Positions 1-3,888 of a DNA stretch of 36,194 nucleotides are shown here, piece after piece. Source of the DNA: Cellulomonas cellasea (GTDB lineage Bacteria; Actinomycetota; Actinomycetes; Actinomycetales; Cellulomonadaceae). The notes under the pieces are model-generated. The model saw nothing but the letters and a program-made list of their open reading frames with translations, made no database searches and was not told the DNA's origin. Position 1 is the first letter of the stretch; each line of letters begins with the position of its first letter. The position numbers were made by a program, and so were the translations under genes. The DNA is taken from NCBI RefSeq assembly GCF_006538745.1, contig NZ_BJLR01000002.1:1-36194 (forward strand), written 5' to 3'.

Positions 1-338
1 ACGCGCGTCAGCCGTTCACCGAGCCCTTCACGGAACCCTTCACCGAACCGTTCACCGAGGCGTACGCGCGTCAGCCGTTCACCGAGCCCTTCACGGAACC
101 GTTCACCGAACCGTTCACGGAGCCCTTCACCGAGGCCTACGCGCGTCAGCCCTTCACCGAACCGTTCACGGAGCCGTTCACCGAGCCGTTCACCGAGCCG
201 TTCACCGAGGCGGTCGGCGGTCGCACACCCGTCCGTGCACCGGCGGCGTCCCGTCCTCGTCCCGGCCGGCGTGAGCTCGCCGAGGCGTACTGGGCCGGCT
301 ACCTGACCGCGCGGTACCACCGCGCGCAGGGGCGCTGA
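1..338 (+). CDS. 3' end of a PFTE-tetrapeptide-repeat protein (partial)
   Basis: The reading frame is open from the left edge (first full codon at base 3) to TGA at 336-338, about 111 residues, so the start lies outside the window. Three blocks of exact PFTE tetrapeptides (4, 5 and 5 copies, bases 12-209) are separated by the spacer AYARQ. A short basic, Pro/Arg-rich linker and a helical-looking tail (ELAEAYWAGYLTARYHRAQG) follow. All 14 tetrapeptides are identical in amino acids, while their codons vary only synonymously (CCG/CCC, ACC/ACG, GAG/GAA), which argues for a translated, selected repeat. The stop is 4 bases before the GTG of the next gene, so the two are probably co-transcribed. I do not recognise the family. 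The missing N-terminal part would decide whether this is a tail on an enzyme or a stand-alone repeat protein. Confidence 0.8.
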   Translation, partial: ARQPFTEPFTEPFTEPFTEAYARQPFTEPFTEPFTEPFTEPFTEAYARQPFTEPFTEPFTEPFTEPFTEAVGGRTPVRAPAASRPRPGRRELAEAYWAGYLTARYHRAQGR

Positions 339-342
339 GCGC

Positions 343-1446
343 GTGACGGTCACGGCCGGGCGTCCGGGGGGCGGGCGCGCAGGGAGCACGTCGGGACGCG
401 GGCTGCGCCTCGTGCACGCGGCCACCGGCGGCGCGGCGGGCGGCGTGCGGTCCCCGGGCCGCCCCGGCGTCGACGAGGAGGGCGCGCCGGGAGCGGTGCG
501 CCCGCTGCGCCTCGTGTGCGGGGTCGACCTCGTGCACGAGCTCGAGGAGCAGGTCCTCGAGCTGCGCGCCGACGGACCGACCGTCGCGCACCGCGCAGCG
601 CTCGCGGACCTGCTCGTCGCCTGGGCGCAGAGCCTGGTCGGGCTGCACGGCACGCCGGTCCCGTCCGCGACGCCGGCCGTGCCGCTTCCGTGGGTGCTCG
701 AGCCGGACCGTCTCGCCGGGCACGTGGACGGTCCGCACGCGGCGGCCGGGCGCGCGTGGGCGGTGCGGCAGCACCCGCGGGTGCGCCGTGCGCTCGCCGC
801 CGCCCGCGCGGGCTGGGCGACGGACCGGTGGGTGCACGACTCCGGGCCCGACGCCGTGCTCGTGGTGCGGGACGCGGGGAGCGGCGACGGCTCGCTCCTG
901 CCGGTGCCGGGCGGGTCAGCGGACCTCGCGGGGACGTCGGCCGTCCGCGGTCCGGCGGACGGCGCCTGCGACGCCGCCGCGGCCGCGGCCGCCCAAGCCG
1001 TCCAGGTCGTCGATGCCGTCCCCACCTCCGAGGCCGTCGACGCGGTTCAGGCAGTCGGCGCCGTCGACCCCCTCGACGCCGTCGACGCCGTCGACGCCGC
1101 GGAGCGTGCCGGGCGCCGTCCCGTCCTGCGCGCGCGCCTCGTCGGGGCCGGCCGCGGCGATCCCCGCTGGGACGTCGCCACGGCGCTCGACTGGCTCGCT
1201 GTGCACCTCGCCCCGGCGCTCGACCCGGCGTGGGACCTCGACCCGGTGGCCGGCTTCATGCGCGCGTACCGGGCGCACGGTGGCGACGCCGAGCCCGACC
1301 GCGCGCTCGCCGTGGCCCGCACCGTCGCCACGGCTGCCGCGTGGAGCGACGCGCTCGACGAGCGGACGGAGGACCCGGACGACGACGATCTCGCCTGGGT
1401 CGCCGGCCTGTGGGCGCGGCCGCTCGCGCTCCTGGCGCCGAGGTGA
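343..1446 (+). CDS. Degenerate aminoglycoside-phosphotransferase-like (APH/ChoK fold) protein
   Basis: This is a 367-residue protein with a GTG start 4 bases after the preceding stop. The second half resembles the APH kinase-like fold. A stretch around residue 165 (VHDSGPDAVLVV) looks like the catalytic loop HGDxxPxNVLV. A later stretch, GRGDPRWDVATAL, matches the segment after the metal-binding Asp, where family members read roughly D-W-E-x-A-G-x-G-D-P-x-W-D. The catalytic-loop Asn is replaced by Ala, and the metal-binding Asp appears deleted (LVGAGRGDP). Between these motifs lies a low-complexity insert rich in VDA/DAV (about bases 955-1110). Family assignment is by motif only. If the alignment is right, this is a pseudokinase or a strongly diverged kinase. 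It probably works with the PFTE protein upstream. No substrate can be assigned. Confidence 0.6.
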   Translation: MTVTAGRPGGGRAGSTSGRGLRLVHAATGGAAGGVRSPGRPGVDEEGAPGAVRPLRLVCGVDLVHELEEQVLELRADGPTVAHRAALADLLVAWAQSLVGLHGTPVPSATPAVPLPWVLEPDRLAGHVDGPHAAAGRAWAVRQHPRVRRALAAARAGWATDRWVHDSGPDAVLVVRDAGSGDGSLLPVPGGSADLAGTSAVRGPADGACDAAAAAAAQAVQVVDAVPTSEAVDAVQAVGAVDPLDAVDAVDAAERAGRRPVLRARLVGAGRGDPRWDVATALDWLAVHLAPALDPAWDLDPVAGFMRAYRAHGGDAEPDRALAVARTVATAAAWSDALDERTEDPDDDDLAWVAGLWARPLALLAPR

Positions 1447-1609: not shown

Positions 1610-2332
1610 TCAGGCGGCCTCGCCGTCCTCCTCGGTCAGGTTCCGCGTGCGGTTCTGGTCCACGAGGATGCCGGGGCCGTTCGTCGTCGAGAACGTCGCC
1701 TTCGCGATGTAGCGACCCTTCGACGAGGCGGGCTTCAGACGGTTGACCTCCTCGAGCGCGGCCGCGTAGTTCTCGACGAGCTGCACGTCGGAGAACGAGA
1801 CCTTGCCGATGATGAAGTGCAGGTTCGCGTGCTTGTCGACGCGGAACTCGATCTTGCCGCCCTTGATCTCGGTGACAGCCTTCGCCACGTCCATCGTGAC
1901 CGTGCCGGTCTTCGGGTTCGGCATGAGACCACGCGGGCCCAGGACCTTGCCCAGTCGACCGACCTTGCCCATGAGGTCGGGCGTCGCGACGGCGGAGTCG
2001 AAGTCGGTGTACCCGGCCGCGACCTTCTCGATCAGCTCGTCGCCACCGACCTCGTCGGCACCGGCGGCACGCGCCTGCTCGGCACGCTCACCCGTCGCGA
2101 AGACGATGACGCGGGCCGTCTTGCCCGTGCCGTGCGGCAGGTTGACGGTGCCGCGGACCATCTGGTCGGCCTTGCGGGGGTCGACGCCGAGACGGAACGC
2201 GACCTCGACGGTCGAGTCGTACTTGGTGGTCGCCGTCGCCTGCGCGAGACGCACGGCGTCGAGCGGGGCGTAGAGGCGGCCGGCCTCGATCTTCTCGGCG
2301 GCGGTGCGGTACGCCTTGCTGTGCTTGCTCAT
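1610..2332 (-). CDS. rplA: 50S ribosomal protein L1
   Basis: This is a 240-residue protein of normal family length. It contains the characteristic L1 segments [21 protein letters not shown] near the N-terminus and [14 protein letters not shown] in the middle. L1 forms the mobile stalk at the E-site side of the 50S subunit and binds 23S rRNA. In E. coli it also represses translation of its own L11-L1 mRNA. The ATG at 2332 is preceded by a good Shine-Dalgarno AAGGAG 5 nt away. It follows rplK on the same strand after 118 nt and is the last gene before a perfect hairpin. Confidence 0.98.
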
Positions 2333-2450: not shown

Positions 2451-2882
2451 TCAGCCCTCGACCTTGATGCCCATCGAGCGGGCGGTGCCGGCGATGATCT
2501 TCTCGGCGGCGGCCACGTCGTTGGCGTTGAGGTCGACGAGCTTCGTCTGCGCGATCTCGGTGACCTGCGCGGCCGTCAGGGTCGCGACCTTGACGGTGTG
2601 CGGGGTCGGCGAGCCCTTGGCGACGCCGGCGGCCTTCTTGATGAGCTCCGCGGCGGGCGGGGTCTTCGTGATGAACGTGAAGGACCGGTCCTCGTAGACC
2701 GTGATCTCCACGGGGACCACGTCACCGCGCTGCGACTCGGTGGCCGCGTTGTACGCCTTGCAGAACTCCATGATGTTGACGCCGTGCTGACCGAGCGCCG
2801 GACCGATCGGCGGCGCAGGGGTGGCCGCGCCGGCCTTGATCTGGAGCTTGATCAGGCCGGTGACCTTCTTCTTGGGGGGCAT
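2451..2882 (-). CDS. rplK: 50S ribosomal protein L11
   Basis: This is a 143-residue protein of usual length. The N-terminal domain contains the conserved Pro-rich helix region ([20 protein letters not shown]), which contacts elongation factors and thiopeptide antibiotics. The C-terminal rRNA-binding domain is complete. L11 organises the GTPase-associated centre on 23S rRNA and is needed for the RelA/Rel stringent response. The ATG at 2882 follows GGAAGG with a 4-nt spacer. It lies between nusG (94 nt upstream) and rplA, the standard bacterial order. Confidence 0.98.
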
Positions 2883-2976: not shown

Positions 2977-3888
2977 TCAGATCTTGGCGACCTGGCCGAA
3001 CGACAGCTCGACCGGGGTCTCCCGGCCGAAGATGGAGACGAGCACCTTGAGCTTCTGGCTCTCGGGGTTGATCTCGGAGATCGTCGCGGGCAGCGTGTCG
3101 AACGGGCCGTCGGTGACGGTCACGGACTCGCCGACCGTGAAGTCGACCTTGATCTCCGCGGCGGCGGCCTTCGTGCCGGCCTTCGGGGCCGCCGGCGCGA
3201 GCGACGGAGCGAGCATCGAGAAGACCTCGTCCAGCGTGAGCGGGACGGGCTGGTGCGTGTGCCCGACGAAGCCCGTCACGCCCGGCGTGTGGCGCACGGC
3301 GCCCCACGACTCGTCGGTCAGGTCCATGCGCACGAGGACGTAGCCGGGGATCCGGACGCGGCGCACGACCTTGCGCTGCGCGTTCTTGATCTCCGTCACC
3401 TCCTCCATGGGGACCTCCACCTGGTGGATGTAGTCCTCCATGTTGAGGCTCTGGGTGCGGTTCTCGAGGTTCGCCTTCACGCGGTTCTCATAACCCGCGT
3501 AGGAGTGGATGACGTACCAGTCGCCGGGCTGCGAGCGCAGCTGGGCCTTGAACGCGGCGATCGGGTCCTCGTCGACGTCGGGCTCGTCGTCCTCGACCTC
3601 GTCGACGGGCTCGGCGTCGTCCTCGTCCTGCTCGACCGGCTCGTCGTCCTCGGCCTCGTCCTGCTCGGCCGGCTCGTCGTCCTCGGCCTCGTCGGCCGGC
3701 TCGTCGTCCTCGGCCTCGTCGTCAGCGCGCTTGGCGCCGTCGGCGGCACCGGTCGTGGCGGTGTCCTCGTCGGACGCGGGGTCGGCAGTGCCCGCTGCGG
3801 GCGCCTCGACCGCCGAGATCGACGCCAGGGCGTCCTCGAGCTCGGTCTCGGCAGCACCCTGCTCGGACTCGTGCGACTCGTACGTCAC
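2977..3888 (-). CDS. nusG: Transcription termination/antitermination factor NusG with a long acidic N-terminal extension
   Basis: This is a 303-residue protein, far longer than the roughly 180 residues of E. coli NusG. The canonical core starts near residue 110. The NGN domain (about 122-225; [20 protein letters not shown]) binds the RNA polymerase clamp. The KOW domain (about 250-303; [16 protein letters not shown]) can contact Rho or S10. Residues 1-108 are disordered and very acidic, with imperfect [10 protein letters not shown] repeats at about 57-104. An Ala/Pro/Lys-rich linker (about 227-246) separates NGN and KOW. The start is GTG at 3888 with only weak Shine-Dalgarno similarity. Acidic N-terminal tails are known in actinobacterial NusG, but length and repeats vary. 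It lies downstream of secE in the classical order. Confidence 0.97.

Follow-up and report, generated by a model that had tools for sequence, protein, structure and literature searches.

The window analysed here is the 36,194-nucleotide stretch of Cellulomonas cellasea contig NZ_BJLR01000002.1 (assembly GCF_006538745.1, positions 1 to 36,194, forward strand), which opens inside an array of PFTE tetrapeptide repeats. The array lies at the 3' end of a gene for a NAL1-like serine protease, with the following features:

3..338, plus strand: 3' end of the gene for the NAL1-like serine protease, with tail and stop codon; the 5' part is on contig C1 of the same genome (G000:C1:305109-306580), and an uncut gene is found in G016 (L082)
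12..59, plus strand: PFTE block 1, 4 units
60..74, plus strand: spacer AYARQ
75..134, plus strand: PFTE block 2, 5 units
135..149, plus strand: spacer AYARQ
150..209, plus strand: PFTE block 3, 5 units
270..335, plus strand: C-terminal stretch with the motif [FY]W.G[YFW]; in the relative L123, the model shows the corresponding stretch as a helix

An earlier note on this DNA had described fourteen exact PFTE units with only synonymous DNA variation, in blocks of 4, 5 and 5 split by AYARQ. Both descriptions were borne out (window 12-209; units at 12-59, 75-134 and 150-209), the units being written with six distinct 12-mers. Codons vary at third positions only (Pro, 9 CCG and 5 CCC; Thr, 10 ACC and 4 ACG; Glu, 9 GAG and 5 GAA), and the Phe codon is TTC in every unit of the window. 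Past the array, the frame 3-338 continues to a C-terminus that is conserved among relatives. The window corresponds to contig C2 from base 1, and the contig break falls inside the array, so the 14 units are those on the C2 side. Since the end of contig C1 lies in this array too and has an exact 94-base overlap with C2, the gene start is placed on C1; the upstream sequence that the note had asked for to obtain the N-terminus was thereby retrieved, and it supplies the protease part of the gene. If C1 and C2 simply overlap, the array would hold 2+5+4+5+5 = 21 units. The two-unit PFTE DNA pattern had 19 matches in this genome, all at the C1 end or the C2 start, and none when read backwards. A chance or non-coding repeat was ruled out by the frame, the synonymous pattern and the relatives, and a fragment of a cell-surface protein by the upstream contig, which encodes a protease. 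A match at G000:C7 was judged by eye to be unrelated sequence.

Among 200 family genomes, the two-unit PFTE pattern was found in 23, this genome included, and 22 of them carry arrays of this kind. The only exception, G153, has its match in a different short frame (G153:C42, L097), which is not this array; that frame reads PEPFTEPFTEP, and no module query matched the stretch. In a draw across the phylum, the pattern occurred in 1 of 396 genomes, namely this one. Two family genomes of one further genus (G005 and G063) have PFTQ in place of PFTE. Over the arrays we counted 509 PFTE, 28 PFTQ and 10 variant units, taking in both contig halves of split arrays, with about five units of the C. cellasea genome (G000) counted double. 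Arrays touch contig ends in G161, G170 and G175, the contig of G175 having just the tail end of its array, and the G091 gene is broken immediately ahead of the array. Copy number and block sizes vary freely; the unit itself hardly varies.

The earlier note preferred selection on the peptide over plain DNA slippage, and the comparison between units of one array supports this: synonymous differences were 0.38-0.63 per site against 0-0.057 for nonsynonymous ones (21 rows of the S1 protease, with units picked by a loose pattern admitting some, not all, variants). That the frame is used also stands, as 22 genomes have the arrays in frame, with complete arrays running into the C-terminal stretch. 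The rare codon GAA made up 162 of 470 Glu codons in the S1 arrays (34%) versus 19 of 385 outside the arrays of those genes (5%; 21 rows, units not independent). This excess in the coding DNA hints at selection for mixed codons too, perhaps for repeat stability. When adjacent units were compared with shuffles, neighbours were more different than expected in 6 of 17 arrays (P < 0.05) and not in 11; two of the six positives (L100 and L101) are near-copies, and L103 tends the opposite way.

Going by a low-confidence model, the array is probably a disordered tail of the NAL1-like protease. The earlier proposals of a surface array, a cell-wall spacer or a modified peptide product find no support in this placement, beside genes for an extracytoplasmic function (ECF) sigma factor and a TPR-CHAT protein; no obvious signal peptide was seen on the protease by eye. 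H172, D214 and S303 are invariant in 10 of 10 sequences and we take them, by position, to be the catalytic His-Asp-Ser; the trypsin-like fold matches too. The Pfam Nal1_C match scored 24.9 bits, below the cut-off of 26.1. In a Nitriliruptoraceae NAL1-like protease (L130), a C-terminal FW.GY motif follows a different, Cys-rich tail without PFTE.

The protease belongs to a module between rplA and rplJ (slot borders from Pfam), together with the ECF sigma factor, a small carboxypeptidase-regulatory-like (CPR) protein and the TPR-CHAT protein. On the window side, the protease is followed by:

343..1446, plus strand: open reading frame, family unassigned, starting 5 bases after the protease stop
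1610..2332, minus strand: rplA (ribosomal L1), border of the module slot, Pfam
2451..2882, minus strand: rplK (ribosomal L11), Pfam
2977..3888, minus strand: nusG, Pfam

The open reading frame at 343-1446 had no Pfam, PADLOC or NCBIfam match at the limits used; it has relatives in 11 of 26 loci compared and none in the two PFTQ loci. On C1, rplJ and the S1 gene are separated by the TPR-CHAT, CPR and sigma genes, which follow one another directly and leave no room for a subtilase. The sigma factor matched TIGR02937 (48.6 bits, cut-off 42.9; group 54 itself had no model here) and the TPR-CHAT protein PF12770 (CHAT; 91.7 bits, cut-off 24), and the CPR protein gave a weak PF13620 match (23.2 bits, below the cut-off of 32.3). 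Genome-wide, no S8 subtilase match was listed for G000, G005, G041, G057 or G083, with 4 of 21 first-look candidates scored in G000. PADLOC returned nothing for the Cellulomonas module proteins, and a weak subtilase match for the S8 protein. The TPR-CHAT fold is that of Csx29 and separase; all 12 sequences compared keep His744 and Cys784, by position the putative catalytic pair. Against solved structures, the TPR-CHAT sequence profile had one weak match, IFT88 (E 0.033).

This module goes with the tail. Of the 22 PFTE genomes, 21 have the sigma gene, 21 CPR and 20 TPR-CHAT, with contig ends accounting for the misses, and both PFTQ genomes carry all three. In a scan of named genomes, we kept the best 80 of 245 NAL1-like stretches. 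The sigma gene accompanied 20 of these, all Cellulomonas; in the other 60, sigma, CPR and TPR-CHAT were not found within each stretch (E 1e-5), and four of these 60 are also Cellulomonas (L139, L144-L146). A tail with at least two PFT[EQ] units was present in 16 of the 20 sigma-linked loci (the four misses are cut by contig ends) versus 0 of the 60 others.

Some further observations concern the module proteins and their relatives. The CPR C-terminus is nearly always [ST]P.[FIVLM][ED][ILV], in modules with S1 and S8 proteases alike (L006:3729-4226; counterparts in L082-L106 and L222-L308); it differs in L290 and L298, is cut in L103, and no such protein came from L096, L097, L105, L107, L223 or L301. 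The C. cellasea genome has a second TPR-CHAT protein (35% identity) with a sigma factor (32%) on G000:C29 (L221:6996-11117), and the S8 subtilase query found no relative in that stretch. In another, unrelated CHAT protein (L007:6393-8522, G000:C30), encoded beside a DUF7379 gene, DPFTEAFTDQVRDPFTEPFVEPFTEH separates the N-terminal part from the CHAT domain. This protein had no close orthologue in 101 family genomes, where matches span the CHAT part only (~29-37% identity) or PFT arrays; in PADLOC it gave weak BovA and SAVED_CHAT matches.

Subtilases occur in related modules of other genomes. We retrieved thirteen sigma loci from other genomes through the sigma protein, and in seven of them a subtilase of one common type has tandem peptides in the linker between its N-terminal region and catalytic domain (NPFTRS, NPFTRT, NPLTRG, NPYHSG, HPYDSS, NPYGTRT and GYGDGV); in one other (L230) no subtilase was found. 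A search with one subtilase gave 38 high-scoring relatives among the matches listed. At least three copies of a 5-mer were present in the linker of 31 of the 38 versus elsewhere in the protein in 1, and at least two copies in the linker of 37 versus elsewhere in 10. The 30 loci compared for their motifs hold 24 different linker motifs, six of them each in two genomes. DNA units inside these arrays differ at synonymous sites; their nonsynonymous value is near zero by construction, as only exact units were taken. Viewed with flanks, 20 of the 38 loci had TPR-CHAT in 20, sigma in 19 and CPR in 18 (L301 is without sigma and CPR, and the CPR of L303 was found only by the later comparison of CPR C-termini). 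The seven repeat-bearing sigma loci, also among the 38, carry sigma, CPR and TPR-CHAT, which brings the loci viewed with flanks to 27 of the 38.

The S1 and subtilase modules meet in one chromosomal slot. In a midpoint-rooted tree of 46 TPR-CHAT proteins, with nesting judged against five OUT rows (the TPR-CHAT of L099 is cut), the 15 S1-module proteins group in a single clade (100/100) that lies among the subtilase modules, with the OUT rows outside. Nearest to it are five subtilase modules, together in a 99/95 clade, and the arrangement nusG-rplK-rplA, module, rplJ was seen in exactly those five of 28 loci tested. Four of the five same-slot subtilases carry PYTQPH x5, PYTQPF x6, HPFTQS x5 and HPFTQS x6. 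Two copies of PYTIPH are present on the next branch out (L291), which lies outside that slot within its stretch. Inside the S1 clade, PFTQ (L085, L086) stands beside PFTE with support 89/70. The S1 protease gene sits across the sigma gene from the subtilase position, in the opposite direction. A single slot with related sigma, CPR and TPR-CHAT has thus exchanged one serine protease for another of a different fold, with a P[FY]T[QE] repeat on the newcomer as well as on 4 of the 5 subtilases. The unit-by-unit upkeep of the repeat after the exchange suggests that it is in use.

We favour, with a probability of roughly 0.55, the reading that the PFTE units act as a multivalent short-peptide tag, carried by the module's serine protease and recognised in trans by a conserved partner, with TPR-CHAT as the likeliest candidate. 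It builds on the architecture, the synteny, the selection on the peptide and the presence of related tandem peptides in sister modules, where they sit on an unrelated subtilase. Because similar repeats stand on an unrelated protease in the same gene neighbourhood, the repeat is suggested to be a tag that a partner recognises; we infer this partner to be TPR-CHAT, with sigma or CPR less likely. TPR-CHAT would dock on the repeats or cut them. In the subtilase form, a cut at the repeats would separate the catalytic domain from the N-terminal region. The tail of the Cellulomonas form would recruit the NAL1-like protease or be trimmed. The protease pair would then control the ECF sigma factor or its small neighbour.

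Several observations weigh against a partner-read tag. The fifth same-slot subtilase (L300) has two STPLP copies only and no PFT, and five of the thirteen sigma/TPR-CHAT loci (L223, L231-L234) have a more distant subtilase type without such repeats. Some S8 motifs lack P[FY]T (GYGDGV, GYGSGV, GMYGTN), copy number is about 3-8 in S8 linkers versus 13-36 in complete S1 arrays, and unrelated repetitive tails occur on other NAL1-like proteases without the module. The new gene could have acquired its tail from the linker of the former subtilase with no reader involved. Since all S1 modules fall into a single clade within one named genus, the association of tail with module and the swap each count about once.

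Three other explanations were considered. In the first, which we regard as unlikely, the array joins the protease to the C-terminal helix as a flexible spacer or entropic linker, and the identity of units comes from duplication and codon constraints. The AlphaFold model of L123 (models were built on 12 sequences each) agrees with it: residues 353-568, linker plus array, are coil except for short helices at ~361-370, and pLDDT is below 50 nearly throughout. Quite different low-complexity tails are found on other NAL1-like proteases (IKDK, KDKE, KEFK x19, EKPE and PGQA; L139, L151, L162, L169, L156 and others), so repetitive tails recur in the family. However, a spacer has no need for PFTE to be kept unit by unit while synonymous sites vary, nor for a subtilase of unrelated fold at the same slot to have a P[FY]T repeat in its linker.

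Subtilisins self-process between their N-terminal region and catalytic domain, and the subtilase repeats stand at that position, so they might be self-processing sites by which the carrier protease activates itself. We find this rather improbable: the carrier switched to an unrelated fold and a similar motif is on it, and the array of the S1 form is C-terminal. Least probable is self-assembly or condensation of the protease through its regularly spaced Phe, every four residues over 13 to 36 copies in complete arrays and in predicted coil, as the subtilase forms hold only about 3-8 copies and the S1 unit is more strictly kept than a sticker-spacer model requires.

Returning to the partner-read tag, its presence on both sides of a carrier exchange points to a recognition sequence. 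More tentatively, actinobacterial sigma/TPR-CHAT modules may use a lineage-specific tandem peptide code, read on a client protease by the separase-like protease or another fixed partner, drifting between lineages, uniform within each array and carried over when the client is swapped. Few substrates are known so far for the caspase-like TPR-CHAT proteases of bacteria, and the 24 different natural peptides are on offer as a test set. If true, this would show how an ECF group proposed to lack an anti-sigma factor could be switched by a protease cascade.

Compared with known systems, the Cellulomonas module shares features with several. VMAP and effector-associated conflict systems, in the parts of the source considered, combine trypsin-like and caspase-like peptidases (PMC7159879), and the Cellulomonas module likewise pairs the two types; the word CHAT has 0 occurrences in the main text of that paper. 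From rice NAL1 and the bacterial trypsin-like relatives, the protease differs by its tail of at least two PFT[EQ] units, absent from the 60 other homologues among the best 80 of 245. In Craspase, as far as the passages considered describe it, a TPR-CHAT-like protein cuts a sigma inhibitor (Csx29, Csx30 and CASP-sigma; PMC10028731). The TPR-CHAT fold with its candidate catalytic His and Cys is present here too, whereas the Cellulomonas module has a second serine protease with tandem repeats. In gene content, the module resembles the ECF54 sigma group, for which passages of a review describe carboxypeptidase, subtilase and CHAT neighbours and propose proteolytic control with no anti-sigma factor (PMC8999054). 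The Cellulomonas module also has a sigma factor and a CHAT-domain neighbour; it differs in having no subtilase and in the PFT[EQ]-tailed NAL1-like S1 protease that sits beside sigma, and those passages of the review do not mention tandem repeats. Our literature search of open-licence papers found neither tandem peptides in module subtilase linkers nor the S1 exchange in print, and the repeat letters themselves gave no paper. The module type is already known, and the exchange for an S1 protease together with the tandem tags is the new part.
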